Made by a program: the position numbers and the translations under genes. Of a stretch of 64,000 nt of DNA, positions 1,486 through 50,224 are shown piece after piece. The notes under the pieces were generated by a model. That model was given only the letters and a program-made list of their open reading frames with translations, had not been told where the DNA came from and ran no database searches. Source of the DNA: Dastarcus helophoroides (Eukaryota > Arthropoda > Insecta > Coleoptera > Bothrideridae); contig CM053327.1 of assembly GCA_028583605.1 (NCBI GenBank), positions 36,143,126 to 36,207,125 of the forward strand, written 5' to 3'. Position 1 is the stretch's first letter, and each line of letters opens with the position of its first letter.

Positions 1486-2189
1486 TTATATTTATTTTTC
1501 AAATTGTACCTCATTCCGGCTTTTCTCCGACTTACAAAAATTTTTGAAAATCGATTTTGTTAACAATTTTGACTTTTTTTTTCAAAATGTCGATATTTAT
1601 TAAATCTCAACATTTTTTGAAATCTTCGAACATTTCGTGAACTATTTATGAAAATGCGCCATTTTTTTTAAATATTGAGACTTTTTGAAAAGTCGACTTT
1701 TCTAAGTCGAATTTCTTTTTCATAATTTCCATTTTTCGAACATCTTGATTTTTTAAATTGTATATTTTCTTTAAAAATTCCTCTCGTCGAATTTTTGACA
1801 GCTGATTTTTTTTTTCAAAATTTTGAATTTCAAATATTTCTGCTCTCAAAAATGTTGCCTTTATATGAAGCTTTTAATTTTTTTGAAAATTTAGATATTT
1901 TTAAATGTTGACTTTTTTAAATTTCGACGTATATTGAAATTTTCGAAATTTTCTTCAAAAATTCCACTCTTTGAAAATTTGAAGTCCGATCCTTTGAAAC
2001 CTAATTTTTTTTCAAAATTTTTAATTTCAATTATTTCGAGTTCCAAAAATGTCGCCATTTAATCAAATTTTCAATTTTTTTGAAAATTTCGATATTTCTA
2101 GATGTCGACTTTTTTAAATTTCGACATCTTTTGTAATTCTAATGCACAGACCAATAGGCTTAAACATTTATTAGATTGGAAGTTTGGAA

Positions 2190-2232
2190 ACCAAAAACCG
2201 GTTTCGATCTTGTTAGATCTCGTCAGTTTGGT
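2190..2232 (-). ncRNA. Hammerhead ribozyme on the opposite arm, canonical core
   Basis: Read on the minus strand: accaaa, CTGACGA, GATCT-aaca-AGATC, GAAA, CCGG, TT, tttggt. Stem I (6 bp) and stem II (5 bp) are perfect, and the cleavage dinucleotide is UU. It differs from the partner at 2486-2528 at N7, in the stem II loop and in the cleavage base, none of which breaks the fold. Confidence 0.85.
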
Positions 2233-2485
2233 ATATCCAACTCAAATGCTAACAAATGTTCCGACAAGTAAATACTAAAGAATTCACAAACGTCAAGCGT
2301 GTGACTCTTATTACTACCACTTATTGGTCCATAGAGAAACTATGGCCATCGCCAACAATGTCGTATGCAAGTAGAATGGAACCTAGACTAAAAATTCATG
2401 ATAGTACTAAGAGGCACACGCTTGACGTCCGTGAATTCTTTAGTACTTACTTGCCGGAACATTTATTAGCATTCAAGTTGGATAT

Positions 2486-2528
2486 ACCAAACTGATGAGA
2501 TCTAGCAAGATCGAAACCGGTCTTTGGT
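2486..2528 (+). ncRNA. Hammerhead ribozyme, canonical core, minimal stem III
   Basis: Parts in order: stem I strand accaaa (2486-2491), core CTGATGA (2492-2498), stem II GATCT with loop agca and AGATC (2499-2512), core GAAA (2513-2516), palindromic CCGG with closing T (2517-2521), cleavage base C at 2522, and return strand tttggt (2523-2528), exactly complementary to accaaa. Every conserved hammerhead position is present, including the G10.1-C11.1 pair and a UH cleavage dinucleotide. The two-pair stem III predicts activity mainly as a dimer, as in Penelope-like elements. Confidence 0.88.
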
Positions 2529-3279
2529 TTCTAAACTTCGAATCTAATAAATGTTCAAACCTATTGGTCTGTGCATTAGAATCCTTGTCTTCTGGGAAAT
2601 GTTTCCTAGAGAGCAACCGCATCACTAGGTGGCAGTGTTTCAATTGTAGGTAGTTCAGCCACCTATGATTCACTATACACGCCTGGAGGGCTGCATAAAT
2701 TTGTAGCCTCGGTTGCATTATACTTGCATCTTTTGTAATCTTCGATATTTTTCGTCGACTGGTTTTAAAAACTTCAAGTATGTCAAAAATTTTGCAGTAT
2801 ATTTTGTAAAGTTTGAATTTTTTCTAGTTTCGCCTTTTTTTTTCAAAATTTAAATTTTTCTTTAACTTTTTTGAAATTTTTCACCATTTTCTTCGACTAG
2901 TTCTGTGTATTGAGATTTCTTCGAATATTTAGGCTTTTTTAAAAATTTTGACTTTTTTGAACATCTTGGCAGTTTTTCAAAATCTTTACTCCAATTATTT
3001 TGAAAATGTCGATTTTTTTGAAAGCTGGATTTTGTTTAAATTTTTGATTTTTTTCAAATCCTACCTCTTCCCCGAATGCTGTTCTTCACTTTTTTTCAAT
3101 TTTCAATTTCCTTTGAAAATTTTGTTTTTCTTAAAAATTTTGATTTTCTTAAAATTTTTGATTTTCTTAAAAATTTTGATTTTCTTAAAAATTTTGACTT
3201 TGCCGAAAATTTAAAAATCTCTACATTTTTAAAATCTTCTGGCTATTTTCGTTGACTATTTTTTAAAATGCGCCACTTT

Positions 3280-5110: not shown

Positions 5111-5976
5111 CATCTTGACTTTCTTGAAATTTGCAATTTCTTTTTCAAAAATTTATAAAAATGTCGAGTATTTGTAAAATCAGGACCTTTTTCATAATTT
5201 AGAGTCCTGAAATTTTCGATTTTTATCAAAGCTCCAATTTATTTTCCGATTTAAAACAAAATTTAATGCCTTTAAAGATTCGGATATTTGTAAAAATTTT
5301 TAATTTTTGGCGAACTTTTTATTTTTAAAATATTTTGATTTTCTTCCAAAATTTTTAGTATGTTTAAAAATTTCCCTACTTTTTCAAAATTTTGGTTTTT
5401 TTTTTAAAGATTTCGATTTTTTTTTAACGTTTCGATTAAAATCTCTTTATTTTTTTAAATTGTTGGTTATTTTTGTCAACTATATTTCAAAACGTTTTCA
5501 GTATTTTTGTAAATTGTGATAACTTTTTTCAAAATATTTCCATTTTACACATTCAATTTATATATATTTAATGTCAAATTATAAATTAACAATTTTTACA
5601 TTTTCAAAAAGTTATTGACGCTATTTTGAAAGTTTCATTTTAAATTTTAATTCTATTTTTCGAAATTTTAAGTTTTAAATCTGTTTTAATACCAGAGTTA
5701 TTTCGAGAGTTCTTTTTCCAAGGTTGAATATTTTGTTCTATAAATTTCGACTTTTTTTCCGAAATTTGGAATTTTATCTTCACATTTCGATGTTTTATCA
5801 CTTTTTTTCGACTTTAATCCTGAAGTTGAATAATTTTTATTGAAATATTGTTAAAACCTTTGTTGCAAGTTTGAAGATTTCATCAAAATTTGGAATTTTA
5901 TCGTCAAATTTCGATGTTATATTACTTTTTTTCGACTTTAATCCTGAAGTTGAATAATTTTTATTGAAATATCGTT

Positions 5977-6218
5977 TGATGGAACGGACTGGTCCTTGGT
6001 TATCTTCAAAAATTGAAACACAGAACTTGTCCCCTGAAACCAAGAAAGATTAAAAAACACAACAAAGGTTGCTCTTCGATAGCCAAGCTGTCATCTTCAG
6101 AGGGAAAACTGTTTTCTCTCTGAAGATGACAGCTTGGCTGTCGAAACGCGTTAGAGCAACCTTTGTTGTGTTTTTTAATCTTTCTTGGTTTCAGGGGACA
6201 AGTTCTGTGTTTCAATTT
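5977..6218 (-). mobile_element. Foldback family 1, copy B
   Basis: A near-palindrome: left arm from tgatggaacggactgg, right arm ending in tttcaattt, meeting at about 6113. It is flanked by the 13-bp duplication ttgaaatatcgtt (5964-5976 and 6219-6231). The surrounding DNA is locally duplicated, and the sister unit at about 5840-5880 preserves the uninterrupted site (ttgaaatattgttaaaacc), which proves insertion. The right arm carries an intact hammerhead-like motif; the left arm has lost aacgcgtta from its copy. Confidence 0.85.
6116..6156 (+). ncRNA. Hammerhead-like ribozyme motif in foldback copy B
   Basis: Stem I ctct (6116-6119) pairs with agag (6153-6156). The core CTGAAGA (6120-6126) is followed by an extra T, then stem II GACAGC-ttg-GCTGTC (6128-6142), GAAA (6143-6146), CGCG and TT (6147-6152). 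All catalytic-core residues fit CUGANGA..GAAA..UH. The single unpaired T between A9 and stem II departs from the consensus and could lower or abolish activity. Confidence 0.65.
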
Positions 6219-6546
6219 TTGAAATATCGTTAAAACCTTTGTTGCAAATTTGACGATTTCATTCAAAAATGCCTATAAAATAATTTCAAATTTTTAATTT
6301 TTTTACCAAAACCTCGATTAATTTTTACCGGTTTCTGGAAAATAAAATCCTTTTTTTAGAAACTACAATTTTAATCTTTTAATTTCGACTGTTTTCCGAA
6401 AATGTGCTAAAATTATGTAGAAAATAAATTTACAATATGATAAAAAACTTATAAAAATTTAAAAATAAATCAGTCTGAATTTGACATAAAAGCTGAATAT
6501 TTTCTGGAGCAGCACCCCCATTTATTTTAGCTAAAAGCCGCCACTG

Positions 6547-7412: not shown

Positions 7413-8311
7413 CTGCAAAACAAAATCGACCGAAAGGGTAATGTAAGTGTCGACATTAGAGTGGATCCAGAAGCGAACAATAAATTTATGCGGCTTAATA
7501 CAGTGGGAGAGCGCTGTCGCAAATCCGCCATTAAATCACCAATAAACATCACAATCAAATCCACTTCCAACTTAATGCAGCGAAGTCCGCTTAATGAGCA
7601 AGCGGCGGATTAAAATTTATGCATCGACTAACAGTTGCAGGTCCTTGTTATCGGGTGTTGTTTTTATTTCCGTTTCGGGCGTGCCCGAACGTGAGGAAGC
7701 TAGATTTATTTTATCAGGTGACAAAATTTGCATAATTAGTTTGCATTAGTGCGAATCGGGAATTCGCTCACACAATGAGCACCACTTCAATAATGACCAT
7801 TTTATTCCATTCGCCTTCGGAATAAAACACTCCTAAACTTTTCGAGCATTAACAGAAATTTACATTTACAATTAGCTCTGCTGATTTTATGTTTAGATTG
7901 GATCAGCTGGTTAATTTAACACTAGTGGCGTCCTCTATTCAAATTTCCAAGAATAGAAGATAAACTCGCGCTGGAATGGAAGACGTATAATCAAATAAAT
8001 CTCGGTGACAGAACTTGAGAATTATTAGCTTTGGGTACTTTCCAATTATACCATTTAAGTAGCCTTTTAGACTGCATTTATTGGTGATCGGCTAAGATTC
8101 TCTTAAACAACTTTTCAAAATATTCTGCATTGTCCTGCGATTTCACATTTTCTTCTGGAATCGTTACTAATTTCGTTGGCGTAACTTAAAGATTGCAATC
8201 GACTTTTTTAATCATCTTAGTGAAAGAAATAATATTTGACTTTCAAATCCTGCTGAATTGTAACCAATTTTTGATTTATTGATTCAGAGAGATATAGGGG
8301 AGTAATATTAC
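7413..8311 (-). other. Atg16 intron between blade 4 and blade 5 exons
   Basis: A 899-bp intron with GT donor at 8311 and AG acceptor at 7413. It is free of the large repeat families that fill the rest of the window. No other gene is seen in it. Confidence 0.85.
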
Positions 8312-8491
8312 CTCTTGTTAAATCCAACGATGTGACTTTGCCGTTGAGTACGATACTGTTGGCGCTGGCCTCCGATCTGGTGTCCCAAAATCTGATACTC
8401 TTGTCGAAATGGCCGCTGATGATCGTCGTACCAGAACTGTCGACCGTCACCAGATCGTTGCAACTCGAGCCGGCGAATTTCGTCTCAGTAC
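8312..8491 (-). CDS. Atg16: Atg16 exon encoding WD40 blade 4 (partial gene)
   Basis: This 180-nt exon starts with two bases that complete a Cys codon split from the exon at 30299-30419, then encodes 59 residues plus one base. It contains FAGSSCNDLV, SGHFDKSIRFWD and LNGKVTSLDL, the hallmark strings of ATG16L1 blade 4 (FAGSSCND and SGHFDKKIRFWD in vertebrates). The acceptor is tttgcacag before 8491 and the donor is GTAAT at 8311-8307. A longer open frame (8217-8738) runs into both introns, but its flanks do not resemble Atg16 and the splice sites define the exon. The intron to the previous exon is about 21.8 kb and holds hAT-like, LINE, foldback and satellite DNA. Confidence 0.95.
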
Positions 8492-9501
8492 CTGTGCAAA
8501 CAAAAAGCAACATCGTCGTCACATAAGGCTGGTAAACGATTGTCGGGTGTTTATTGTTAGAAACGGCAATAAATCTCGAATAATTTATGGTACGGAGGCG
8601 TCCGGCTAGAAATCGCGTGTTTTTGCTAATGAATCGCGAAAACACGGGTGCTATTTCTTTAAAATCAAAAAGGACATTGATCACACCAAACGCAAGCTCA
8701 TTAACGTAACGGGAATTTTTTTTTTGACGCGGGGACACCTCTAATTAAATTTGTTAGTGATAATTATTTTTCAAATGTTTTAAGCATTTTAGTGGTTTAA
8801 TTACTAAGGAATTTATGCACCGAATGACCTTAAGGTGCAGAAGCTTAAATTCCATCCAAGATTGTCGACGATAAAACTAACCGAATGTTGTAGGAGCAGC
8901 TACTTCACATAAAACAGTTTCAGGTTGTAAATGAGAAACGTAAATTCGTAGAGATTCGGGAAATTAGCCTTAGAGGCGCCTTTTTACGAAACCGAATAAC
9001 ATTTAGATAAAATTTTTAATTTGTTGATTGATCGAGTGCTAACGCAGCGGCACGATTAGTTTTGACCAGTGGCGGCTGGCGTATAAGCACTGTGGAACTG
9101 CAGCAGCCCTAATTTCGCTTACGAGTTTTTTTCTCAAAATTTTTTTAACACTTCATTACAAAATATTTTGTAGAAATTGATTTCCTTTTTATAGAAATTT
9201 TAGGTTTCCTTCACGAATTTGCGACATTTAAAAACATATTTTTTTTAAATTTTGATCAAAATCCACATTTTTAGAAACTAATTTTTATAAAAGTATTCAG
9301 AAAGAAACCGATATTTCGAGCAGCAATTAAAATGTTAAGAAAAAACTCAAATTTCTTTGAAAATGTCAACATTTTGAGAAAATAATTACAATTTCAAAAA
9401 AAAATTAGATCCAACCCATCTCGCATTTTACTATTTCTCTAAAATGATTCTAATGCATAGACCAATAGGTTTGAACATTTATTAGATTCGAAGTTTGGAA
9501 G

Positions 9502-9542
9502 CCAAAGACCCGTTTCGATCTTGTTAGATCTCGTCAGTTTGG
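9502..9542 (-). ncRNA. Hammerhead ribozyme, slightly decayed stem III
   Basis: On the minus strand: accaaa, CTGACGA, GATCT-aaca-AGATC, GAAA, CGGG, TC, tttgg. Core, stem I and stem II are intact. The stem III palindrome CCGG has become CGGG, leaving only the pairs next to the core. Confidence 0.7.
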
Positions 9543-9641
9543 TATATCCAACTCGAATGCAAACAAATGTTTCGACAAGTAATTATTAAAGAATTCACGG
9601 ACTTACTCGTCAGAACATTTGATAGCATTCGAGTTGGTTAT

Positions 9642-9684
9642 ACCAGACTGACGATATCTAACAAGATCGAAACCGGTCTTTGGT
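9642..9684 (+). ncRNA. Hammerhead ribozyme, mismatch at first stem II pair
   Basis: accaga, CTGACGA, TATCT-aaca-AGATC, GAAA, CCGG, TC, tttggt. Stem I has one G-U pair. The first stem II pair is T against C, instead of the G-C seen in copy 1. Core residues are all retained. Confidence 0.7.
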
Positions 9685-11039
9685 TTCCAAACTTCGAATC
9701 TAATAAATGTTCAAACCTATTGGTCTGTGCATTAGAATCCTTGTCTTCTGGGAAATATTTCCTAAAGAGCAACCGCTTCGCTAGGTGGCAGTGTTTCAAC
9801 TGTTGGTAGTTCAGCTACCTACGATTTACTATACACGCCTGAAGAGCGGCATGAATTTGTAGTCTAGGTTGCATTCTACTTGCATTTCTCTTAACAATAA
9901 GTTAATATGTATCTGGAATTTTTCCCTCAAATCTCATTTTGTATAAGTTTTAAGAAAGGAATCAATATTTGGAACCGGAATTAAAATGTTAAGAAAAAAA
10001 CTCAAATTTGTTTGAAAAGTGTCAACATTTTGAGAAAATAATTACAATTTCAAGAAAAAATCGAAATCTAATTCATCTCGCATTTTACTATGTCTAAAAA
10101 ATAAGTTAATACGGTATTTTCGAATTTTTACCTCAAATCTCATTTTGTATAAAAATTTTGAGTTTTTTTGAGATATTTCGACTTTCTTTAGGAAATTTTG
10201 ATTTTTTCATGCAAGTTTCCATTTTTCCTAAATATTTAATAAAAAAAATTTTTTTCGAAATCTCTATTTTTCCTACAAGTGCTGTTCTTAAAATTTCTTC
10301 TAGAAATTCCAACTTCTCCAGATTTTTCTTCATGTTCCTCTAATTTGCTTTAAAAATGTCAAGTTTTTTCACGACACTATAATAATTTAAAGTTCATTTT
10401 ATTTGGTAGTTTTGACACAAAATGTTTGGGAAAAACCCTGAAGGCTCTATAAAAATTTCAACATTTTGGGAAAAACAAAAAATTTCGACTTGTAAAGATA
10501 TATCAATTTTTTTGTTCAAATTTCGTTTTTTCTTCAAGAAATTCTGCCTTTTTTTCCTAAGAAATTTGTGTTTTTCTCTAAACACTTTATGCAAAGAATT
10601 ATTTTAGAAATTTTGACTTTTTCTGGAGATATTGTCTTTAAAATATTTTTTCTTGTAGAAATTTTGATTTCTCTCTATTTGTTTTGATAACTTCAAAGTT
10701 TTTATAACGAAATTTTAATATTTTACAGTTCATTTTATTTTGTAATTTTGCTAAGAAACTAAAAATTGTTAAGTATAGATTTAGGGAAAATAAACTTCAA
10801 ATCTGCATAAAAATAAGGAAACTTGGGGAAAAATATTGAAATTTCAAGAAAAAATGGACCTTGTAAATTTCAATCTTTTTTAAAATTTGATATTTCCCTA
10901 AAAAAATTACAACTACTGTAGGACCAAAGAAAATTCTAAATCGGAATTTCCAATTTTTCTAGAAATGTTAAATTTATTCCTGAAATTCTAAACTTCTAAT
11001 TTAAAATTCAAATTTTGATAAAAAAAATTCGAAATTATA

Positions 11040-23470: not shown

Positions 23471-23726
23471 TTTTTTTTTAGGTGGAACGGACTGGTCCTT
23501 GGTTATCTTCAAAAATTGAAATACAGAACTTGTCCCCTGACACCAAGAAAGGTTAAAAAACGCAACAAACGTTGCTCTAACGCGTTTTAGCCAAACTGTT
23601 ATCTTCAGAGAAATACAGTATCTCTCTGACGATGACAGCTTAGCTGTCGAAACGCGTTAGAGCAACGTTTGTTGTGTTTTTTAATCTTTCTTGGTTTCAG
23701 GGGACAAGTTCTGTATTTCAATTTTT
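23471..23726 (-). mobile_element. Foldback family 1, copy C
   Basis: Left terminus ggtggaacggactgg; right side truncated at tttcaattttt. Two inverted arms meet near 23615. The flanks aaacatctagta (23459-23470) and aaacatttagta (23727-23738) match at 11 of 12 positions. The right arm keeps an intact hammerhead-like motif; the left arm copy is degraded. Confidence 0.82.
23622..23662 (+). ncRNA. Hammerhead-like ribozyme motif in foldback copy C
   Basis: ctct, CTGACGA, extra T, GACAGC-tta-GCTGTC, GAAA, CGCG, TT, agag. N7 is C here and A in copy B, a change allowed by the CUGANGA consensus. One base also changes in the stem II loop while the stem is unchanged. Confidence 0.65.
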
Positions 23727-23829
23727 AAACATTTAGTAAACAACTCTGAACTTTTAACTTTGAACTTTTAACAACTTTGAATTTAAAAGTTAGAATTTTG
23801 AGGAAGAAACTTGAAATCTATTTAATAAA

Positions 23830-31809: not shown

Positions 31810-32410
31810 TATATGTATATTTTCATTTAACTACAACAACTGGGCGATCGAATTTCCAAATTAAATTTGATATTTGGAAACAGATCCACACTTTGGAAAA
31901 TCGCATCTGAAAGAAAAACCGCAACTTTTGAAAAACGACGAAATTTTGAAAAAAAAAACCGAAATTGAATTTTGTGAAAAAAGTGGCAATATTCAAACAA
32001 TTGTAAGACGAATTTAGAAAAAAAAAATCGATTCATAAAAATATTTCTCTCATAATTTTTAGGTTTACTTAAATTTTGTCATAATTTTGAAATTTACAAG
32101 AAATCTTTTTCTGCAAACTCACTAAAAATATTATTGTCAGAATCTTTAGATTTTTAGTAAAATGTCGATTCAAATTTGGAAAAATTAAAGAACTTTGAAA
32201 AAAGGTCGAAATTTTGAAAAATTGTAAGTAGAAATTTCCAGACACATCACATTTTGAAGTACAAATTAGAATTTATAGAATAAGACAAATTTCCAAAAAT
32301 TGAAATACAAAATTTTGGTGGAACGGACTGGTCCTTGGTAATCTTCAAAAATTGAAATACAAAACTTGTTCCCTGAAACCAGGAAAGATTAAAAAACACA
32401 AGAAAGGTTG

Positions 32411-32451
32411 CTCTAACGCGTTTCGACAGCCAAGCTATCATCTTCAGAGAG
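32411..32451 (-). ncRNA. Hammerhead-like ribozyme motif, left arm of copy D
   Basis: On the minus strand: ctct, CTGAAGA, extra T, GATAGC-ttg-GCTGTC, GAAA, CGCG, TT, agag. Stem II holds one T-G wobble; the core is intact. Confidence 0.6.
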
Positions 32452-32465
32452 ATACAGTACAGTAT

Positions 32466-32506
32466 TTCTCTGAAGATGATAGCTTGGCTGTCGAAACGCG
32501 TCAGAG
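32466..32506 (+). ncRNA. Hammerhead-like ribozyme motif, right arm of copy D
   Basis: ttct, CTGAAGA, extra T, GATAGC-ttg-GCTGTC, GAAA, CGCG, TC, agag. The cleavage dinucleotide is UC rather than the UU of the other copies, which still satisfies UH. Confidence 0.6.
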
Positions 32507-35500
32507 CAACCTTTGTTGTGTTTTTTAATCTTTCTTGCTTTCAGGGGACAAATTTTTTATTGAAACTACAAATCTTAAATCCTTGTCTCCTGAATTTCAA
32601 TTTTTGAAGATAACTAAGGACCAGTCCATTCCACCAAAAAAGAGACGAATTTCGAGATACATTAAATTTTCAGAAAGTCAAATAAAAAATATAAGAAATT
32701 ATCAAAAAATGGTGAATATTAAAAAAAATGATTTCGAAAAAAATAAACAGTCGAAATTGCTCGAAGAAAATTCAAAATTTTCGAGAAAAAATTCAATTTT
32801 AAAAGGAAAAAGAAAATTTTTTGAAAATAACTTCGAAAGAGTCGAATTTCGAGAAAAAAACCAATTTTGGAATAAAGTTCGAATTTCTAGAAAATGACAA
32901 ATAAAAACCTAACCTTTCGGAAAACTCCGTAATATTTTGAAAATTCTAATATTTCTAAAGGTCAAATTTTGTGAAAAAAGTTGCAATTTTAACAACAAGT
33001 CGAAATTTTGAGAAATTGGTCCACTGTAAGTGGAGATTTTCATAAACATAAAACATCTCATTTTGAAGTACAAGTTAGAATTTCTAGAATAACACAAATT
33101 TTGAGAAATATTATATTTTCGGAAGGATCAAATTAAGAAAATAAGAAAATTTCAAAAAATCCCGAATAATAAAAACATTTATTTTGAAAAAATTAACGAT
33201 TTTTGAAAAAATATCGTCGAAAGATCGAGAAAGAGATCGAAATTTCTCAAAGAAAATTTAAAATTTTTGGGAGAAAATTCAATTCTAAAAGAAAAAAAAA
33301 AGAATTTTAAAAAATAATTTGGAAAGAGTAGATGTTTCGAAATAAAAAACAATTTTGAGAAAAAGTTCGAGTTTCTAGAAAATGAAATAAATAAAAACCT
33401 AACCTTTCGGTAAACCCTGTAATATTTTGACAATTAATTTAATATTTCCAAAGATCAAATTTTCTTAAGAAAGTAGCAATTTTTACAAAAAGTCGAAATT
33501 TTGGGAAACTGGTCCACTGTAAGTGGAGATTTTCATAAACATAACACACCTTATTTTGAAGTACGAGTTAGATTTCTAAAACAAGACAAATTTTGAGAAA
33601 GATTAAATTCTCGGAAGGTCAAATTAAGAAAATAAGAAGCTTTCAAAAAATGTCGAATATTAAAAACATTGATTTCGAAAAAATTAACGATTTTTCCAAA
33701 ATATTGTCGAAATGTCGAGAAAAAGATCGAAATTTCTCGAAGAAAATTCAAAATTTTCTAGAGAAAATTCAATTCTAAAATGTGAAAAGAAGAATTTTTA
33801 AAAATAATGTTGAAAGAGTCGAATTTGGAAAAAAGTCGAATTTCGGCAAAAAAAAACAAATTTAGGAAAAGTTCGAATTTCTAGAAAATGAAATAAATAA
33901 AAACCTAACCTTTCGGAAAACCCAGTAACATTTTTACAATTTAATATTTCCAAAGGTCAAATTTTCTTTAAAAAGAAGCAACTTTTACAAAAAGTCGAAA
34001 TTTTGGAAAACTGGTCCACTGTAAGTAGAGATTTTCGTAAACATAACACATCTCATTTTGAAGTACGAGTTACAGTTTCTATAATAAGGACAAATTTTGA
34101 GAAAGATTAAATTTTCAGAAGGTCAAATTAAAAAAATTAGAAATGTTCAAAAAATGCCGAATATTAAAAACATTGAATTCGAAAAAAATTACGATTTTTT
34201 AAAAATATCGTCGAAATGTCGAGAAAAAGATTGAAATTTCTCGAAGAAAATTCAATATTTTCGAGCGAAATTTAATTCTAAATGGAAAAAAAAAGAATTT
34301 TGAAAAATAATTTCGGAGAGTCCAATTTCGAAAAAAAAAAACAAATTTGGGAAAAGTTCGAGTTTCTAGAAAATGAAATAAATAAGAACCTAACCTTTCG
34401 GAAAACCCTGTAATATTTCGACAGTTTAATATTTCCAAACGTCAAATTTTCTTAAAAAAGTTGCAATTTTACAAAAAATCGAAATTTTGGGAAACTGGTC
34501 AACTATAAGTGGAGATTTTCATGAACATAACACATCTTATTTTGAAGTACGAGTTAGATTTCTGGAATAAGGCAAATTTTGAGAAAGATTAAATTTTCGG
34601 AAGGTCAAATTAAGAAAATAAGAAACTTTCAAAAGATGCCGAATATTAAAAACATTAATTTCGAAAAAATTAAGGATTTTTCAAAAATATCGTCGAAATG
34701 TCGAGAAAAGATTGAAATTTCTTCAAGAAAATTCAAGATTTTCGAGAGAAAATTCAGTTCTGAAAGGAAAAAGATAATTTTTAAAGAGTCAAATTTCGAG
34801 AAAAAAAACGAATTTTGAGAAAAAATTCGAGTTTCTACAAAATGAAATAAATAAAAATCCTTACCGTTCGGAAAACCCTGTAATATTTTGATAATTCTAA
34901 TATTTCCAAAAGGTTAAATTTTGTATAAAAAGTAGCAATTTTTACGAAAAGTCGAAATTTTGAGAAACTGTCCCACTGTAAGTGGAGATTTTTATAAACA
35001 TAAAACATCTCATTTTCAAGTAGAAGTCAAAATTTCGAGAATAAGACGAATTTTGAGAAATATGAAATTTTCAGAAAGTTTAATTTAAAAAAAATCAGAA
35101 AAAAGCGAATATTGCTAAAAGGAATTTTGAAAAAAATAATGAATTTTGAAAAATATCGTCGACATGTCAAAAACAGGGTCGAAATGTCGAAAAAAGAGTC
35201 GAAATTTCTAAAAGAAAGTTCAATTTTAAAAGTAAAAAGGAGAATTTTGAAAGAGAAAAGGGGAATTTTCAAGAATAAAACGTAATTTCGAAAGACGAAT
35301 TTCTAGAGGAAAACTCAATATTAGGAAAGTCGAAATTTTAAGAAAACCAAATTTAAAATAAATATCCAACCTTTCGGAAAAACTCTAAAAATGTTGAAAA
35401 TTTGAAAAATGTCAAAATATTTTTAAAGATCGAATTTTGTGAAAAAAAGTCGAAACTTTCACCAAAAAGTCGAAAATTTGAGAAACTGTTTTCACTGTAA

Positions 35501-38350: not shown

Positions 38351-40388
38351 CCTCAGTTGAATTTGTCTAGCTGCATAAGCCAGGGGGGGAAGGGGAAACT
38401 GTCCTACCCTGGCCTACTCTAGCTAGAGAGCAATAGACCAAATTAAATAATTATTACTTATTTGACATTTTATCCAAATTTTCTTGTGTTATAATTAAAA
38501 AATAAAGAAATGTCTATTTTCAAATGAGCACCTTTTTCTACAATCAATCCCAATATTTATGGAACTGATTGTATTGATAATTGAAATACAAATTTTGTCC
38601 CTTGAAATCAAGAAAGATTAAAAAACACAACAAAGGTTGCTCTAAAGCGTTTCGACAGCCAAGCTATAATCTTCAGAGAAATAATCAAATTGTATTAATG
38701 TCACAGGTAAAAAGCATTCATTCGCAATGAGTCGATGGCTAACAAAGATTGTCTCCGATCGCGTTAAAATGTTTGATTCCAACCGCAATTACTGCATTGC
38801 GTGCAATTTAATAAACCAATGCTAACTCCGAAAATTTTTAGGTAAATGAAATAATGCAAAAAAAATTGATCTGCATTTTATCCTTCGGCTAAATTAGGTT
38901 TTATATAAAAAAATTAATGCTATATGGATCAAAAAGCCTACTTTAAAATCGAGTTTTATAAACATCGATAATCCTCCCTCCTGACTGGCGAAGAATCTGT
39001 TTGGACAACCAGGTAATTATTTCATTTGCAGGAATAGCAGGCTGAAAATAGTTTTTTTTCTCAGTTCATTCCCCTCGTGCAAACGGAGACTTGTTCAATG
39101 CAGCAAATGGCCCATCTTGCGATTATTTTCATTAAAATCGTCTGATTCAGCCGGCGAGTCTATGAATTTCCCAGATTAGAATGAATAAAGGGTTAATCTC
39201 GAGCTCGACTGTGGTATTAATTAAGAAATAATTTATTTATCGCGATTGGCCTTATCTCGAATTAAGAGCCCAGATATAGCGCATGGTAATGACTCTTGGT
39301 TATTCACCTTGATAATTAATAGCTGACTTTATGCTGGCGCTCCTTTATTTTTGCACTGTTCAGGTGAAATATAAGAAATTTGTTTCTTTTTGTCCCTTTT
39401 CCCCAGTACTATGTTTATTGTTTGTGTATGTATATAAAAGACAAACACCACTTACCTCGTCATTTATTGAAATTGAAATAAGTACTTCATCTGACGAGAC
39501 CATCGCCTAAGAAAAGATTTTTTCGAGACTCAGTCCCTAAGGGGGTGAAAATATGTATCAAATCTTAGATGCGATGATTTAGTCACTTCTGAGAATCAAG
39601 TGGAGATCTCAATTTAATTTTTAAATATTAAATTCTAGGGCTAGAGAAAAGTGAAAATTCTAAATGTTTTTTTTTCAAATTAGGAAAATTAGGGAAACTA
39701 GAAAAAATTAAATCATGAAGCAGATACGTTTTAAATAAGTTAAAGGTTAATCTCAACTTAATCCCTCTCCCAACAAATTTTAATCCTTGTGATATTTATT
39801 TAATTATACTAGATAGTTCTCTTATGCAAATTCGAATACACTTACTACCTTGTTACGTTTAGTTGTCCACATCCTATAATTAACTTTAAAATGAAACATT
39901 TTATCCCTATACGGCCATATTGGACATATAAATTATAATGACATAGATTATTGGCTTCGCGCCATGAATATATTCTTTGTATATAGTAAACGTGCATCGT
40001 TATCAGCATTGATAATTTCCTGCTGTTGATGGCGTCGATATGGTCACTTTGAAATCACCAGTTCATAAGCTAACTGATGCGTATGAATTTAATTGGGGTG
40101 AATTTCACATATTACAGTGTCAGGACAATTTGCAGAATTATTAAATCAAATTGTAAATAAATTTCATTCGGGGGTGATTCCCCGCTAAAACGATGCTTAT
40201 GCAACCAGTCGCACTTTCATATGTTTACTCATCTTTGGTAATTATCAAATAGCGACAACGGTTTGCATATTTTGCCTAACATTTTCCTCCATGGTGTCCT
40301 CTGTGACCCCGCAAGAATTAACAAAAAATAATTTTCAAAGAACTTCCCAAAAGTAATTCTTAAGCAGGAATTACGTAAAGTAATTCTT
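38351..40388. other. Mostly non-repetitive sequence without genes
   Basis: Contains foldback copy E (38579-38688) and a short scrap at 39500-39590 (cagtccctaagggggtgaaa) of the family seen at 49140. No exon is recognised. Confidence 0.45.
38579..38688 (-). mobile_element. Foldback family 1, copy E (single arm)
   Basis: Starts at attgaaatacaaattttgtc and ends inside the hammerhead region at cttcagagaaataatcaa. It is flanked by attgtattgat (38568-38578) and attgtattaat (38689-38699), 10 of 11 identical. The ribozyme copy is decayed (aaagcg for aacgcg, and a broken stem II). Confidence 0.75.
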
Positions 40389-40490: not shown

Positions 40491-40820
40491 AAACAAGTTT
40501 TATTTAAAAATCATTGTCAACCAAGATTTACCTGCACATAACTCTCGTAGAAGAATTATCTAAAGTAATTCTCCAATGAGAATTATCGAAATAATTCTTA
40601 AAGAAAAATGATATAAACGTAAATGTTAAACCAGAATTATAAAAAAACAATTATAATATGTATTAAACCGGAATTAGAAAAACTAATTCTCAAACGAGAA
40701 TTTGAAATTAAAAATAATTCTTCCAAGAGCATTATCCACAAAATAGTCTCCAAAAAAATTGTCTAAACCTAATTCTTAAAGGAGAATTGCCTAAAAATAA
40801 CTCTGAAAGTTTCTTAAAGT

Positions 40821-40961
40821 ATCTCTCTCAAGATGATAACTTAGCTATCGAAACGGGTTAGAACAACTGTTGTTGTGTTTTTGAACCTTTCTTACTTTCA
40901 GGGGACAAGATTTGTATATCAATTTTCGAAGATAACAAAGAACCAGTCTGTTCCACCAAAA
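40821..40961 (+). mobile_element. Foldback family 1, copy G (right half)
   Basis: Runs from atctctctcaagatgat through gaaacgggttagaac to the complete terminus tgttccaccaaaa. The hammerhead-like motif is decayed in the first core and in stem III. No flanking duplication was recognised. Confidence 0.7.
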
Positions 40962-43107
40962 ATTATTTAAACATAATCCTAAAATTGGATTTATTAAATT
41001 CAGATTTAATAATTCCTTATTAATTCGGAATTAACCAAAGATATTCTCAAACGAGAATGGTCCACAAATAATTTTCACATGAAAATTACCTTGAAATAAT
41101 TCTGAAACAGGAATTAACTAAAAATCATCTTGATTCATTTTACTTAGGCTATAATTCTCAAAGAACAATTATCTAAAAATAATTTTCCGACGAGAATTAT
41201 CTCAAATAATTCTCCGACGAGAATTATCTCATATAATTCTCAGAGCAAATCATCTGAAATAATTCTCCGTACGAGAATTATCTCACATAATTCTCCGACG
41301 AAAATTATCTCAAATAATTTTCCGACGAGAATTATCTCAAAATAATTCTTAAACTAAAATGATTCAAACATTAATTTTAAATCAGAATTATCAAAAATAA
41401 TTCAAACATTTATTAAACCAGGATGACCTGAAGAAGGATCAAATAATAAATATATAAAAATAATCCTTTCAAGGGAATTACTTACACATAATTTATTCTA
41501 AAACAAACAAAATTACCCAAAAATTATTTCCGAAATGATAATAGGCTAAATATTAAACGAGAATTACCTAAACATAATTTATAAACCGGAATTATCAAAA
41601 CTGATTTTAATAATTCTTGAACAAGAATAACGTAAAAAAATTCTCAAGATAGAATTGGTTGCAAATAATGTTCACAAAAGAATTATCTAAAACTCCACTG
41701 CAACTGACAATTACATGGACATAATTCTAGAAGGAGAATTACATGGACATAATTCTGGAAGGAGAATTACATAGACATAATTCTGGAAGGAGAATTATAA
41801 AAAATAATTCTTAGAGAAGAATAGCCCTAAGATTACTTCTTAAAGGAGAAATTATCTAAATATAATTCTCAAACCGAAATTATCAAACTCAATTCTAAAA
41901 CAAGAATTACCTAAAGTAATTCTTAAACAAAAATAATTCTCACAAGAGAATTACCAAAAAATAATTCTCACAAGAGAATTACCAAAAAAAATTCTCAAGC
42001 AAGAACTATTAAAACTTCTTTTTATAATTCTTATAGATGAATCACCCCGATGAATTACCCAAAGTAATTCTCAAACGAAAATCATCTAAAAATAATTCTC
42101 ACAAAAGAATTACCAAAAAATAATTCTCAAGCAAGAACTATTAAAACTTCTTTTGATAATTCTTATAGATGAATTACCCAAAGTAATTCTCAAACGAAAA
42201 TCATCTAAAAATGATTCTCACAAGAGAATTACCAAAAAATAATTCTCAAGCAAGAACTACTAAAACTTCCTTTGATAATTCTTATAGATGAATTACCCAA
42301 AGTAATTCTCAAACGAAAATGATCTAAACATAATTCTCTGAAGAGAATTACCAAAAAATAATTCTCAAGCAAGAACTATTAGAACTTCTTTTGATAATTT
42401 TTATAGATTAATTAGCCAGATGAATTACCCAAAGTAATTCTCCAACTAAAATCATCTAAAAATGATTCTCACAAGAGAATTACCAAAAAATAATTCTCAA
42501 GCAAGAACTAATAAAACTTCTTTTGATAATTCCTATAGATGAATTACCCAAAGTAATTCTCAAACGAAAATCATCTAAAAATAATTCTCACAAGAGAATT
42601 ACCAAAAAATAATTCTCAAGCAAGAACTATTAAAACTTCTTTTGATAATTTTTATAGATTAATTAGCCAGATGAATTACCCAAAGTAATTCTCAACCGAA
42701 AATCATCTAAAAATAATTCTTACAAGAGAATTACCAGAAAATAATTCTCAAGCAAGAACTACTAAAACTTCTTTTGATAATTTTTATAGATGAATTACCC
42801 AGATGAATTACCCAAAATAATTATCAAACGAAAATCATCTAAAAATAATTCTCACAAGAGAATTATCAAAAAATAATTCTCAAGCAAGAACTATTAAAAC
42901 TTCTTTTAATAATTCTTATAGATGAATCACCCAGATGAATTACCCAAAGTAGTTCTTAAACGAAAATCATCTAAAAATAATTCTCACAAAAGAATTACCA
43001 AAAAATAATTCTCAAGCAAGAACTATTAAAACTTCTTTTGATAATTCTTACAGATGAATTACCCAAAGTAATTTTGAAACGAACATCATCTAAAAATAAT
43101 TCTCTTC

Positions 43108-43310
43108 TGTCTAGGGAGGCTCTTTTTTCTATAGAACTTCCAAGCTATGGAACTCGTTATCGAACCGAATTTTCCCCAAAAATTACAATCTATCCTTGTT
43201 TAAAAAGCGGTTCATCACCATCTATCCTTGTTTCCGTATCCTACTCGCGCTGCTTTGAAGGTATAATAGGGTTATCCTTTGCGAGTGGATAGAAAATGAA
43301 AAAAACAGGA
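43108..43310 (+). pseudogene. LINE family A 3'-end fragment
   Basis: The words ctatagaacttccaagctat, ggaactcgttatcgaa and caccatctatccttgttt match the 3' region at 19740-19850 and, inverted, at 24120-24250. It ends in an A-rich stretch (gaaaatgaaaaaaaca). It is inserted into the TAATTCTC domain. Confidence 0.8.
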
Positions 43311-43998
43311 ATTCTGGATCTGCACATTTTACCCTTGATTGCAAAGTGAATTTTAATTCCGTTCTTCGTCACGAATGTCAAATGCTTTCACAAGTCATTT
43401 AAGGCTTTTATTAAATTTTATAAATCTTCTACCTTACAGTCATATGGTCATCGTTCTCTGTTGCAGCAATCGATAGAAGCAAGCTTTTTGGAGGCGCCGA
43501 TATCGCTGGAATAATGCGAGATATTTTGAGATTTCCTGGTTGGTCCCCCTAATCTCTATCCATCTAACTTTGTTGATTGGATTATTGAATGTCGTACGCT
43601 TAGCGACATCTCCTAATTACCTTTAGGTATTTCATTAGCACATACCAAACTACATTGCGAATCTCAGATCGAGTTTGGCATTATTCTTGTGCCGATGCAG
43701 GATCTTAGATAAAACACCCTCTCACAGGATCTTATAAGCGTAATTATTTTAATTAATGGGGGCTCCTTGGATGCCACTGTAAAATAGCAGGTATTTATTA
43801 TTTGGTTTTCAAGTCGTATGAATATTGCGGAATCTATCAGCGATTTCAAGTCATTTCGTTTTCCGAGTAGAATCTCTAATCAAAGACGAAAGATGTTCTC
43901 TCTAAAAGTAAGGAAAATTTTAAAGCAGTGGGGCGAAGCAAAAGCTGATTGCTATTTAACATATAAGTCAGCGAGAGAATTTTACCCTAGGATGTCAA
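43311..43998. other. Unassigned insert between LINE fragment and resumed array
   Basis: Normal-composition sequence with no repeat words of the surrounding domain and no recognised coding content. It may have come in with the LINE fragment (3' transduction or a second insertion). Confidence 0.4.
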
Positions 43999-44644
43999 CA
44001 AATAATTCTCAAACGAAAATGTATCTAGAAATAATTCTCAGATGAGAATTACTTATAGAAAAATAATTCTCAAGTTAGAATTAGTTATAGAAAAATAATT
44101 CTCAAATGGGAATTATCTGAAAATAATTTTCAAGGAAGGATAATCTAACAATGATTTTATCAAACGAGAATTAGCTATATTTTAAATGAAAATGATTTGC
44201 AATAATTCTCGAACGCGGATTGCTCAAAAATAATTCTCAAACGATAATTATTAGGAGAAATAATTCTCAAATTCATAATTATCTAGAGAAACAATTCTCA
44301 AATAAAAATTATCCGAAAATAATTCCTAGGAAAAAATTATTATACGTAAATAAACGAAACGTTTTTTCTAAACAAGATTTTTTTGAAAATATTTCTCGAA
44401 CGACAATTAGCAAAAATAATTCCCAAATAGGAATTACTTGAATATATTCTTCAAAGACGAATTATATATAATAATTCTTAATAACGATATTACCAAAAAT
44501 AATTTTCCAAATGAAGATTACCTAACAATAATTCTTAAAAGAAAATTACCTAAATATAAGTTTTCTAACGAGAATTATCTAAAAATAATTCTTAAACAAG
44601 AATTAACTAAATATACTTATCAAAGCAAAAATAACTAAACCTAT

Positions 44645-47600
44645 AACTGGCAAATTCGCTTCGTCTCCTTATTCTTACTAATATATAAATGCGAAAGTGT
44701 GTTTGTTTGTCTGTTTGCCCATCTGTTTGTCCGCCTATTTGTCCGTCTGTTTGTACGCTTCAGTGTTGTCAGATTTAGTGGACTTTCTCGATGTTCTGCT
44801 CTCGTGCATATGGCACGACTCATTTTCTATGTAAATAAATTCAAAACCTCGGCAATGACAACATGACGATGGCGTCATCGAACGAATGAGGGTCCAAAAT
44901 TAATGTCGCTTTGCAGGTGGGATTCTTTTAGAGGTAGTCTGACAGTTTGACAACTTGACATAACGACGTATTAGGGCGCATCTTCTGCTCTTCTCGGCTT
45001 CTCTGCGGTGATAGTTGCCAAATTTCTCGTATTTTACGGGTTCTTCCATATTTTGGTAAATCAGTATTTGGAATGAAATCTCCCGTATTTTAAAGAGTGC
45101 GACGGTAACACATATTTAATAAATAGGAAAGCATATTTTAGTCGGCAGTACCATCTAGTGCAGAGACAAAAAAAACATTTAAACAAATAAATTGATCCGA
45201 CGATTCCAGTAAGTTCACCTCGTCTTCTTATTCTTATTAATATATAAATGCGACAGTGTGTTTATCTGTCTGTTTATATGCTTCTACGTTGTCAGATTTC
45301 GCGCACTTTCTCGATTTTCTACTCTCGAGGATATGGCACGAATCATTTTCTACGTAAATAAATGCAAAACTTGACAATGACAACACAATAGCGGCGTCAT
45401 CTAACGATGAGGGTTTAAAATTAATGTTACTTTGCAGGTAGGATTCTTTTAGAGGTAGTCTCATAGTTTGACAGCTTGAGATAACGTAATAGGGTGCATC
45501 TCCTCCTCTTCTCGGCTTCTCTTCGGTGATAGTTGCCAGATTTCTCGTATTTTACGGGTTTTTCCATATTTTCGTAAATCAGTATTTGGAATGAAATCTC
45601 CCATATTTTAAAGAGTGCAACGGTAACACATATTTCATAAATAGGAAAGCATATTTGATCAGCAGTAGCATCTAGTGTAGAGACAAATAAAAACATTAAA
45701 ACAAATAAATTGATCCGACGATTCAAGAAATTAACTTCGTCTTCTTGTTCTTATTTATTGTAAATGCAAAAGTGTGTTTGTCTGTCTGTTTGTATGCTTC
45801 AATGTTATCAGATTTCGCGCACTTTCTCGATTTTCTACGTCCACGCCTATGACACGAATCATTTTCTATGTAAATAAATGCAAAACTTGACAGTGACAAC
45901 ACAACAGTGGCGTGATCCAACAATGAGGATTTAAAATTAATGTTACTTTGCAGGAAGGATTCTTTAAGAGGCAGTCTGACAGTTTGACAGCTGGAGATAA
46001 CGTGATAGGGCGCATCTCCTCCTCTTTTCGGCTTCTCTGCGGTGATAGTTGCCAGATTTCTCGTATTTTACGGGTTCTTCCATATTTTGGTAAATCAGTA
46101 TTTGGAATGAAATCTCCCGTATTTTAAAGAGTGCAACGGCAACACCTATTTCATAAATAGGAAAGCATATTTGATCGACAGTACCATCTAGTGCAGAGAG
46201 AAATAAAAATATTAAAACAAATAAATTGATCCGTCAATTCAAGAAATTCACTTCGTCTCCTTATCCTTATTAATATATAAAGTGTGTTTGTCTGTCTGTT
46301 TGTTTGTTTGTTTCAATGTTGTCAGATTTCGCGCACTTTCGCGATTTTCTACTCCCACGCCTATGACACGAATCATTTTCTATGTACATAAATTCAAAAC
46401 TTGACAATGACAACACAACAGCGGCGTCATCCAACGATGAGGGTCCAAAATTAACGTAGCTTTGCAGATGGGACTCTTTTAAAGGTAGTCCAACAATTTG
46501 ACAACTTGACATAACGTGTTAGGGCGCATCTCCTCCTCTTCTCGGCTTCTCTCCGGTGATAGTTGCCAGATTTCTCATATTTTAAGAGTTATTCCATATT
46601 TTGGTAAATCCGTATTTAGAATGAAATTTTCTGTATGTTAAGGAGTGCAACGGTAACATATATTTCATAAATAGGAAATCATATTTGATCAGCAGTAGCA
46701 TCTAGTGCAGAGACAAATAAAAACATTAAAACAAATAAATTGATCCAACGGTTCAAGAAATTCACTTCATCTTCTTATTCTTATTTATTATAAATGCGAA
46801 AGTGTGTTTGTCTGTCTGTTTGTATGCTTCAATGTTGTCAGATTTCGCATACTTTCTCGATTTTCTACTCGCACGCCTAGGACACGAATCATTTCTATGT
46901 AAATAAATGCAAAACTTGACAATGACAACACAACAGCGGCGTCATCTAACGATGAGGGTTTAAAATTAATATTACTTTGCAGGTAGGATTCTTTTAGAGG
47001 TAATCTGACAGTTTGACAGCTTGACATAACGTGATAGCGCGCATCTCCTCCTCTTCTCGGCTTCTCTGCGGTGATAGTTGCCATATTTCTCGTATTTTAC
47101 GGGTTTTTCCATATTTTGGTAAATCAGTATTTGGAATGAAATCTCTCGTATTTTAAAGAGTGCCACGGTAACACAAATTTCATAAATAGGAAAGCATATT
47201 TGATCGGCAGTACCATCTAGTGCAGAGAGAAATAAAAGTATTTAAACAAATAGATTAATTCGTCAATTCGAGAAATTCACTTCATCTCCTTATACTTATT
47301 AATATATAAATGCGAAAGTGTGTTTGTCTGTCTGTTTGTATGCTTCAATGTTGTCAGATTTGGCACACTTTCTCGATTTTCTACCCCCACGCCTATGACA
47401 CGAATCATTTTCTATGTAACTAAATGCAAAACTTGACGACGACAACACAACAGCCGCGTGATCCAACGATGAGGGTTTAAAATTAATGTTACTTTGTAGG
47501 TATGATTATTTTAGAGATAGTCTGACAGTTTGACTGCTGCGTATTTTGGAGAGTGCAACGGTAACACAAATTTCATAAATAAGGAAGCATATTTAATCGG

Positions 47601-48321
47601 CAGTACCATCTAGTGCAGAAACAAATAAAAACATTAAAACAAATAAATTGATCCGTCAATTCAAGAAGTTCACTTCGTCTCCTTATCCTCATTAATATAT
47701 AAATGCGAAAGTGTGTTTGTCTATCTGTTTGTACGCTTCAATGTTGTCAGATTTCGCGCACTTTCTCGATGTTCTACTTCCACGCATATGGCACGACTCA
47801 TTTTCTATGTAAATAAGTGCAAAACTTGACAATGACAACACAACAGCGGCGTGAGAGGGTCCAAAATTAATGTAACTTTGCAGGTAGGATGCTTTTAGAG
47901 GCAATTAATGTAACTTTGCAGGGTGGATGCTTTTAGAGGATAGTCTGTCAGTTTGACAGCTTGACATAACGTGGTAGGGTACATCTGCTCCTCTTCACGG
48001 CTTCTCTGCGGTGACAGTTGCCAGATCATCCACATTTTACGGGTTCTTCCATATTTTGATAAATTCGTATTTAGCAAGGAATCTCAAAATTAATAAAAGA
48101 GATCTCTTGCATTTTAAAGAGTGCAACGGTAACACAAACTACATAAGTAAGAAAGCATATTTGATCCACAGCACAAGCGAGACAAACTAAAAACATTAAA
48201 ACAAATAAATTGATCCGTCAATTCAAGAAATTGAAAAACTGTCTTTCACTTTGGACAGTTTTTCTGTTGAATCTCAAATCATTCACTTAAATCCGCAGAC
48301 GAAGTCGCGGGTAATAGTTAG
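44645..48321. mobile_element. Helitron-like element as a ~515-bp tandem array, seven units
   Basis: The phrase gtgtgtttgtctgtctgttt and variants begins near 44696, 45254, 45770, 46277, 46800, 47316 and 47710, each unit continuing through gtcagatttcgcgcacttt, the acaacagcggcgtcatc segment, gcatctcctcctcttctcgg and gaatgaaatctcccgtatt. The right boundary has ccgcagac-gaa-gtcgcgg (48293-48310), a GC hairpin followed by ttag at 48318-48321, comparable to a Helitron 3' end (hairpin then CTRR). No Rep/helicase is present, so it is non-autonomous. The minus-strand frames inside, for example 45427-45726, recur only because the unit is repeated. Confidence 0.7.
48233..48264. repeat. Perfect 11-bp inverted repeat (hairpin)
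   Basis: gaaaaactgtc (48233-48243) and gacagtttttc (48254-48264) are exact inverse complements around a 10-base loop, just before the 3' end of the Helitron-like array. It may be a second subterminal hairpin of that element. Confidence 0.6.
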
Positions 48322-48930
48322 ATATAAAAATACGAATGAAATAGACAACATTTGATAAAATTATGACAATTCACAGTGAATTATTTTAATATTTTATGCA
48401 TCAGCAATAGAAAAGTAAATTTTGTGAAATTCAGCTAAATGTTTACAAAATGCTTCAGATTCTTATCGGATATTTTAAACGTTTTTCTCAAGTAAACACG
48501 CGGACAGAATGGGCTCGGATATAGGAAAATTCCTGGAAGATCGTGTGTGCTGACTTATTGACGTTTTTAATACGGGCGTGATAAAATTCCACTGCTTCTC
48601 ATGATGTGGGTTTCACGATTGTTTATGGTCCGTTCGACTCAGGACGCAAGCTTTTTCTAAAAAAAAATATGTTATTTAATCCATCAGCAACATTTTGTCA
48701 ATATTGCAATACGCTTCTTGGAGCAGAAGCCACATCTGTTCGGTTAGGCTTATAAAGATTTTTTGTTCGAATAAAAAAAACCGAAACTATAGTTGTGGTG
48801 GTAAATATTTTGAACTTTGGCACGTTTAACTGTTTAATTACAGAACATTTTATAGTTATTTGTCGGAAAAAACTCATTAAAAACTTTAAAAAAGTTAAGT
48901 GTTTCATAAATACTTTTGTAGATTTTTTAT
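48322..48930. other. Unassigned sequence between repeat domains
   Basis: No recognised gene. The frames at 48698-48907 and 48795-49025 overlap on opposite strands and have no domain. Confidence 0.4.
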
Positions 48931-49139
48931 GTAAGAGTAATTCGCAGGCAAGTTATATGGAAATAATATTCAAGTATTATCTAACAGTCGTCCTTAAACA
49001 AGAATTGGCTGAAAGTCAATCTTAAACGTGAATTACCTAAGCATTATTAAAAAGCGATTACACAAAAGTAACTTTTAGATTACAATATATAATAATGATT
49101 CTTGAAGGAGAATTATCGTTTTAATAAAACTCTTATACT

Positions 49140-49685: not shown

Positions 49686-50224
49686 GAATAATTCTTAAAC
49701 CAGAATTATTTAAAAATAATTCTTAAACGAGATTTACCGAAAAAAGTTGTTGCACGAAAAATATCTCACACAAATCTCAAACAAGAAATATACAAAAATA
49801 ATTATCGAATAAAATTCTTAAGGCAGAAATATCTAAACAAAATTTTTATTACAACATAATTACGAAGAAATAACTTTTAAGCTAGAATCATATAAGAACA
49901 ATTATTAAACGAGAATTATCTAAAAATAATTATAAAATATGATTTAACCTAAAGTAATATTATTGCAAAAGAGTTACTTTAAGCAATTTGCAAACAAGAA
50001 AATACACAAAATAATACTCGAAAATTTTTTAGAGATAATTATTTAAATCTAAGTCTTAAACAAAAATTATCTAGAAATTATTCTCAAATGAGAAACAATT
50101 TGAAAATACTCCTACGAGAAATACCCAAAGATATTTCGAGCGGGAATTCTCCAAAAGTAATTCTTAAGTGAAAATTATTTAAAATTTTTTCTCAAGCAAG
50201 AATTATCAAAAAATATTACTTAAT

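Follow-up and report, generated by a model that had tools for sequence, protein, structure and literature searches.

A hammerhead ribozyme sequence in a putative foldback retrozyme of Dastarcus helophoroides with ends of the Penelope type

A complete type I hammerhead sequence lies in a small foldback element of the beetle Dastarcus helophoroides, and the question raised by this locus is what kind of element carries the hammerhead and how that element came to be inserted as its own mirror image. Here, we analysed the surrounding 64,000 nucleotides of contig CM053327.1 (hereafter, the window), together with the 539-Mb genome, which is assembled in 50 contigs. The hammerhead, at positions 2486-2528 (+), reads ACCAAA CTGATGA GATCTAGCAAGATC GAAA CCGGT C TTTGGT. 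The core (CUGANGA ... GAAA), with C2522 as H17 at the predicted cleavage site, is accompanied by three stems: stem I, which is open, is formed by ACCAAA/TTTGGT, stem II by the five base pairs GATCT/AGATC, the pairing of which is kept, and stem III by the palindrome ACCGGT. A first-pass annotation of this DNA had listed these conserved positions in the same order, including the pairing of the outer strands accaaa and tttggt, and all were found.

A search with Rfam, which the annotation had proposed as a check on the interval, came out on both sides. At gathering thresholds, no match was returned for the whole window, whereas at a relaxed threshold RF02275 (Hammerhead_HH9) matched 2474-2545 (+) over the full model, with 37.8 bits against a gathering score of 52 (E = 4.8e-8 for a 541-base stretch, 5.7e-6 for the whole window). 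The sequence resembles RF02275 in its complete core and in a stem I that continues beyond the internal loop, and differs from it, apart from the score, in five positions missing from stem-loop III. The covariance model strongly backs the hammerhead by E-value, yet under Rfam's own cut-off. The word 'textbook', used in the annotation, suits the sequence and is excessive on two counts, since the gathering score is missed and stem III is minimal; axolotl retrozymes with a minimal stem III are described as cleaving poorly as monomers (Cervera and de la Pena 2020, PMC7229834). Minimum-energy folding of 2486-2528 recovers stem II and the greater part of stem I, and pairs the CUG of the core with the CGG of the ACCGGT side, so that the core is not open. 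Read from the letters, the hammerhead sequence is real and is confirmed at exactly 2486-2528; its catalysis is predicted.

The foldback setting proposed for the hammerhead also holds, since 2486-2528 sits in the right arm of a foldback that spans 2138-2729; the annotated extent covered one of two hammerheads and missed the second, the tail to 2729, the tandem parent and the Penelope-type ends. The features of this element and of a second copy in the window are listed here, with monomer positions referring to a 377-bp unit and A and B to a short and a long end, all described below:

2125..2137, left copy of the target-site duplication CATCTTTTGTAAT (flank comparison)
2138..2400, minus strand, left arm, a retrozyme segment bounded on the outside by the short end A, at monomer about 225-230 (mapping to monomer)
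2190..2232, minus strand, second hammerhead, with a CTGACGA core and U at 2196 as the predicted cleavage base (sequence and Rfam HH9)
2399..2400, head-to-head inversion junction with a 2-nt overlap (microhomology; segment mapping)
2399..2729, plus strand, right arm, a retrozyme segment from monomer 45 to 377 that ends at the long end B, CTTGCAT (segment mapping)
2457..2556, plus strand, extended stem I, GAACATTTATTAG... / ...CTAATAAATGTTC, flanking the hammerhead (inverted-repeat and fold analysis)
2486..2528, plus strand, the reported hammerhead, with predicted cleavage after C2522 (sequence and Rfam HH9)
2583..2729, plus strand, the 'tail' (A-to-B region), at one outer end only (segment mapping)
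2727..2739, right copy of the target-site duplication CATCTTTTGTAAT (flank comparison)
9443..9885, second retrozyme foldback, with the A end on the left and the B end on the right (hammerhead matches in both arms)

Each mirror-image arm of the foldback carries a hammerhead sequence, in the plus orientation in the right arm and in the minus orientation in the left, where RF02275 matched 2173-2244 over the full model (34.8 bits, E = 5.3e-5 for the whole window). The inverted repeat itself, 2136-2319 and 2399-2582, consists of arms of 184 nt that are 91% complementary; on the monomer, the element first runs along the minus strand from 342 to about 225 and then along the plus strand from 45 to 377. 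Ten base pairs of the target duplication are unambiguous, because the CAT with which it begins also terminates the element at its other end. No open reading frame of at least 120 amino acids overlaps 2136-2729. When folded as one RNA, the whole foldback is predicted to form a long hairpin (-326.5 kcal/mol) with the hammerhead base-paired to the other arm, so that cleavage of transcripts from such loci would have to outcompete the hairpin. The second copy, 9443-9885, has weaker hammerhead matches at 9484-9555 (-) and 9630-9701 (+), of 28.4 and 28.9 bits.

Other features of the window were noted alongside. MicroRNA matches obtained with relaxed Rfam thresholds fell on or near foldback hairpins, below their cut-offs, and were treated as chance. 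An open frame at 8217-8738 (-) has a weak match to the THOC3 beta-propeller (31 bits against a cut-off of 305), and is probably an exon or a fragment of a host gene. Long tandem arrays occupy 54979-56937 and 41930-53314 (periods of about 150 and 453 bp; 132-454 bp and others), and minus-strand open reading frames at 54901-56669 fall in the array at 54979-56937.

A chance occurrence, which the first-pass annotation had judged very unlikely from the core, the stems and the palindrome, is also countered by the frequency of the hammerhead in the genome: the strict core pattern CTGANGAGATCTAACAAGATCGAAA has 3,929 matches (1,937 + 1,992), and none in the 539-Mb genome when read backwards. For another CTGATGA pattern, with looser stems, the counts were 161 + 142 (303 in all) against 4 + 1. 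Among 54 distinct 30-nt strings of several families, from the 100 listed of these 303 matches, stem II was paired in 174 of 216 cells, against a mean of 157.9 and a maximum of 170 in 2,000 shuffles. Many looser-pattern places belong to a further dispersed hammerhead-like family (CTGATGAGGCCAAGGAAGGCCGAAACYGGTCTATGG and variants; loci L002, L005 and L007, at position 1501), to which the retrozyme monomer has no match in these three loci except for one 20-nt stretch in L005.

The parent form is found in locus L012, where head-to-tail units of 377 bp, about 99% alike, are arranged as 5.3 units on the minus and then 2.0 on the plus strand, with eight hammerhead places that match Rfam HH9. One of these units serves as the monomer ruler: position 377 is the last base of CTTGCAT, the CTGACGA core is at 139 and cleavage is after 169. 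The monomer has a GC content of 0.42, and of 128 mapped segments 30 exceed one unit by more than 10 nt. A hammerhead inside tandem repeats of 150-450 bp, the absence of coding capacity and target duplications of more than 4 bp are the marks of a retrozyme, and all are found here. The foldback arms are head-to-head copies of this 377-bp tandem monomer, which would be a non-LTR retrozyme of the metazoan type. A tandem array of a retrozyme variant was also seen in L039 (952-2592), where monomer 298 is followed by 197 again several times, as a rearranged unit. Among 41 units other than the search match itself, the cleavage base H17 is the most variable of 111 positions (A in 28, C in 11, T in two, G in none). 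The hammerhead allows A, C or T at this base, and not G. No purifying selection on the ribozyme core was visible among the copies, in which the core and its surroundings gave the same value (0.038 and 0.038).

To describe the insertions as a population, we compiled 77 of them from 67 sources, namely loci L002-L028, taken from the looser-pattern matches listed and hence biased to CTGATGA cores, loci L029-L078, which lie on one stretch of contig C1, and the window. Before counting, we removed duplicates (L001, L004, L006, L037, L041, L049 and L054) and insertions whose flank was already represented, as well as segments shorter than 30 nt and clusters that were shorter than 100 nt or lay 60 nt or less from a locus end (the last rule removes L012). 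Thirty-nine insertions are head-to-head foldbacks and 38 are one-directional; none of the 77 sampled is tail-to-tail. In L029-L078 alone, 25 of 53 are head-to-head. Among the 100 strict-pattern matches listed, neighbours within 500 bp are arranged minus-then-plus in 11 cases and plus-then-minus in one; in that one pair, C1:2307333(+)/2307464(-), the cores face each other 131 bp apart, and it may be a tail-to-tail insertion.

The outer ends of the foldbacks follow a rule. One is the short end A, which is spread over monomer 221-236 in the A/B foldbacks, and the other is the long end B, which lies at 377 in 19 of the 30 and, in the remaining 11, at 374-376 or 1-10. In seven of the 39 foldbacks, an end fell into neither class; among the 32 with both ends classifiable, 30 pair A with B, two are A/A and none is B/B. 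When the same ends were paired at random, A/B pairs had a mean of 16.2 and a maximum of 28 in 20,000 trials; for L029-L078 alone the count is 18 of 20, which was reached by 6 of 20,000 random pairings. One-directional copies (n = 38) terminate at A in 21 cases, at B in 11 and elsewhere in six. Target duplications of at least 8 bp flank 36 of the 77 insertions, of which 26 are foldbacks (n = 39) and 10 one-directional (n = 38); when flanks were mismatched, 63 of 1,540 pairings had such a repeat. The duplications of the 30 A/B foldbacks range from 6 to 15 bp, and 25 of these foldbacks have one of 8-15 bp.

Head-to-head copies, a tail at one end and short duplications are the marks of insertion by Penelope-like elements (PLEs), and all are shared by the retrozyme with PLEs that have inverted pLTRs and a tail (Arkhipova et al. 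2013, PMC3846280). In rotifer PLEs, as described there, a tail of 31 bp is optional on one of the two inverted repeats, the head-to-head arrangement is the most frequent, and duplications of 8-10 bp accompany several copies and are absent from others. In the lizard element PAc, according to PMC11167929, the PLE protein cuts and extends both strands, and the tail is the interval between two start sites of reverse transcription; PAc also resembles the retrozyme in having a hammerhead in its repeat.

A search of the same genome for GIY-YIG domains gave at least 91 matches over the cut-off among the 150 scored of 1,070 candidates, and 12 loci (L079-L090) were compared with about 1.5 kb of flank. 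Six of them (L080, L082-L086) form family 1 and five (L081, L087-L090) form family 2; L079 is something else. A GIY-YIG domain scored above its cut-off in L080 and L082 of family 1 and in L088 of family 2, and in L085, of family 1, RVT_1 was found with 28.1 bits (E = 1.9e-6), just under the Pfam cut-off of 29.6; Penelope-like elements combine these two domains. Both families are likely to be Penelope-like elements, family 2 being known here from its GIY-YIG end alone. Two of the six family 1 loci, L080 and L082, were resolved as foldbacks, and both are head-to-head; one end lies at ...CTTTGGAC, and the other extends 38 nt beyond it to ...GTGCTTTAGT, which gives a tail of 38 nt. The repeat at the end of family 2 has a hammerhead-like core (CTGAGGA or CTGAAGA ... 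AAACGCGT), and is also present in the window, with CTGAAGA/CTGACGA cores and stem III ACGCGT, where at least three copies are head-to-head foldbacks:

5976..6223, family 2 terminal-repeat foldback, minus arm with the tail (B) and plus arm without it (A), with a 13-bp duplication, TTGAAATATCGTT
23481..23732, foldback of the family 2 terminal repeat, with the B end on its left and the A end on its right
32317..32551, foldback of the family 2 terminal repeat with its B end on the left, the plus arm of which was traced only as far as reference position 103

In the first two of these, a 27-nt tail is present on one side only. More copies of the family 2 terminal repeat were seen at 1335-1481, 38579-38683 and 40818-40957; Rfam did not call the family 2 terminal repeat in the window a hammerhead. 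The ends of the retrozyme share one layout with those of families 1 and 2, one of which is in this very window. Two differences from PLEs stand against this likeness. The retrozyme tail, of about 141-156 nt, is much longer than those of family 2 (27 nt) and family 1 (38 nt), and lies outside the 27-40 nt of the tailed PLEs compared here (PMC3846280; PMC11167929). Moreover, the retrozyme has no long open frame, and its monomer nowhere matches the 12 GIY-YIG loci L079-L090 over 20 nt or more; among these loci, no recognition sequence common to the retrozyme and a helper PLE was found.

How do the two arms arise? Inverted repeats of rotifer PLEs have been proposed to form by snap-back, in which a single cDNA or an antisense template folds and copies itself, which makes the first arm the template of the second (PMC3846280). 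The junctions lend this some appeal. They overlap by at least 3 nt in 17 of 39 foldbacks, against 5.3% for random exact-match junctions, a comparison of measures that are not identical because BLAST ends tolerate mismatches; many have small loops (e.g. monomer 118/129, 118/131 and 117/126), and four of the 39 (L009, L045, L068 and L078) have overlaps of 27-36 nt at positions that fit the hammerhead's own stem I. At nine two-state marker positions that define subfamily haplotypes, the arms are alike in several foldbacks (8/8 markers in L017, 5/5 in L078 and 8/9 in L040), and when all loci are pooled the two arms carry the same state in 68 of 92 marker cells, against 54.6 in permutations; rare variants of the left arm recur in the right in 11 of 145 cases, with 3.2 expected. 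However, in L029-L078 marker agreement falls to 37 of 60, against 36.1 permuted, and arms diverge within a foldback (mean 0.063) nearly as much as between foldbacks (0.069; n = 35). In L061, which has a 12-bp duplication, and in L031, L048 and L063, the arms differ at several markers, and in L045, with a 13-bp duplication, at both of its markers. Since the arms of some foldbacks belong to different subfamilies, they were likely copied from two RNAs. For several foldbacks, then, a cDNA copied onto itself is unlikely, while others could have formed in this way. Snap-back also leaves unexplained why A stands at one end and B at the other; the arm comparison disfavours it as the general route, and we consider it unlikely as an account of the family.

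Mobilisation by another target-primed reverse transcriptase would fare somewhat worse. LINEs leave variable target duplications, and inverted copies by twin priming, which in its classical form involves two adjacent, hardly overlapping parts of the template. The arms described here overlap over much of the monomer, which speaks against twin priming, and the fixed pair of alternative 3' ends is the signature of a PLE tail, present in the two GIY-YIG families of this genome and in published elements (PMC3846280; PMC11167929). LINEs have been named beside PLEs as possible retrozyme helpers (PMC7229834); nevertheless, a LINE helper appears improbable here. A MITE or foldback DNA transposon with a hammerhead in its terminal repeats by chance, to which the inverted arms of 184 nt and the flanking duplications would be suited, is rejected as very improbable, since the duplications vary from 6 to 15 bp where a fixed length is expected, the outer ends are unequal (A and B) where equal termini are expected, inner ends and junctions vary between copies, 38 of 77 insertions are one-directional, and tandem arrays exist.

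The reading that we favour, and regard as probable, is that the element is a non-autonomous hammerhead retrozyme in foldback form, the RNA of which was likely reverse-transcribed into both strands of a staggered break by a PLE protein. Tandem arrays of 377-bp units would be transcribed, and the type I hammerhead is predicted, by analogy with published retrozymes, to cut the RNA to monomers that a host ligase circularises. A PLE protein with GIY-YIG and RT domains would then cut the target with a stagger of about 8-15 bp, of which the observed duplications may be the trace; the free 3' ends may prime cDNA at site A or site B of the RNA, one on each side of the foldback, in keeping with the A/B pairing; and the two cDNA 3' ends may be joined through the short matches seen at the junctions, giving a head-to-head inverted repeat.

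As for the template, the hammerhead cleavage site falls inside 104 of 128 segments, and a linear monomer cut by the hammerhead is therefore not the usual one; the usual template is a circle or an uncut multimer, with no preference between the two. Non-consensus bases recur in the neighbouring unit of the same arm in 73 of 237 cases, where 21.4 would be expected, and in many arms none recurs; this is compatible with circles as well as with uncut multimers and does not decide between them. A possible enrichment of cDNA ends at the cleavage site (inner ends, 5 of 78, with 1.7 expected) was set aside and is not taken as evidence, because three of these five ends come from the junctions at stem I.

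Folding suggests how A and B might be brought together. In the predicted circular fold of the monomer, 218-222 pairs with 373-377 and 227-231 with 365-369, with probabilities of 0.60-0.89, so that the two sites are predicted to face each other across one stem, from which a single complex could start at both. The A-B pairing was kept in the segment's own fold in 55 of 56 sampled spanning segments, against 13 of 56 shuffles; because the sampled segments are related to each other, the agreement shows conservation and does not count as independent proof. Folding of PLE tails gave no clear answer as to whether A and B face each other. A stronger form of the favoured reading, which we put forward tentatively and hold to be rather less likely than its alternatives taken together, is that retrozymes are parasites of PLEs, that two reverse transcriptions take place on the two target strands, often from two RNAs, and that the division between A and B is obligatory. 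Under an obligatory division, an RNA stem bearing A and B might be gripped by a paired PLE enzyme, and one strand would start at A and the other at B because the sites oppose each other on one RNA stem. PLE insertion in vitro is reported to be independent of hammerhead cleavage (PMC11167929).

The comparison with retrozymes and Penelope-like elements, drawn in the first-pass annotation from the minimal stem III, is upheld by the 377-bp tandem parent and the Penelope-type ends. Metazoan non-LTR retrozymes are described as tandem repeats of about 170-400 bp with a type I hammerhead, a GC content under 50%, target duplications of more than 4 bp and many copies, co-existing with PLEs, which are called a 'strong candidate' for their helpers on the grounds of shared hammerheads, tandem copies and co-occurrence (PMC7229834). 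The element described here resembles them in hammerhead type, repeat size, GC content, duplications, copy number and the presence of PLEs, and differs from those described there in that about half of the sampled insertions are foldbacks with fixed unequal ends; neither 'inverted' nor 'head-to-head' occurs in the main text of that paper. The W-element satellites of Schistosoma mansoni, as presented in PMC8490949, are mobile, with target duplications and some functional type I hammerheads; they share satellite-like hammerhead repeats, duplications and, in some elements, inverted repeats with the retrozyme, but these inverted repeats flank miRNA and snoRNA subunits, and head-to-head hammerhead arms or paired unequal ends are not part of that account. 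Among the matches listed from the open-licence literature, by titles and the starts of abstracts, there was no paper on foldback retrozymes. Inverted PLE copies themselves are already known; as far as the literature was searched, what is new is that a retrozyme bears a scar of the PLE type, how often it does so, the rule by which A pairs with B, and foldbacks with arms of different subfamilies.

Since the scars of the retrozyme match those of GIY-YIG families in the same genome, the idea of a PLE helper can now be put to the test. The integration reaction of PLEs is poorly known, and the A/B pairing rule places a constraint on it that had not emerged from the in-vitro work. Finally, insertion of the PLE type would explain how hammerheads end up inside hairpin elements, co-linear transcripts of which would form long double-stranded RNA.
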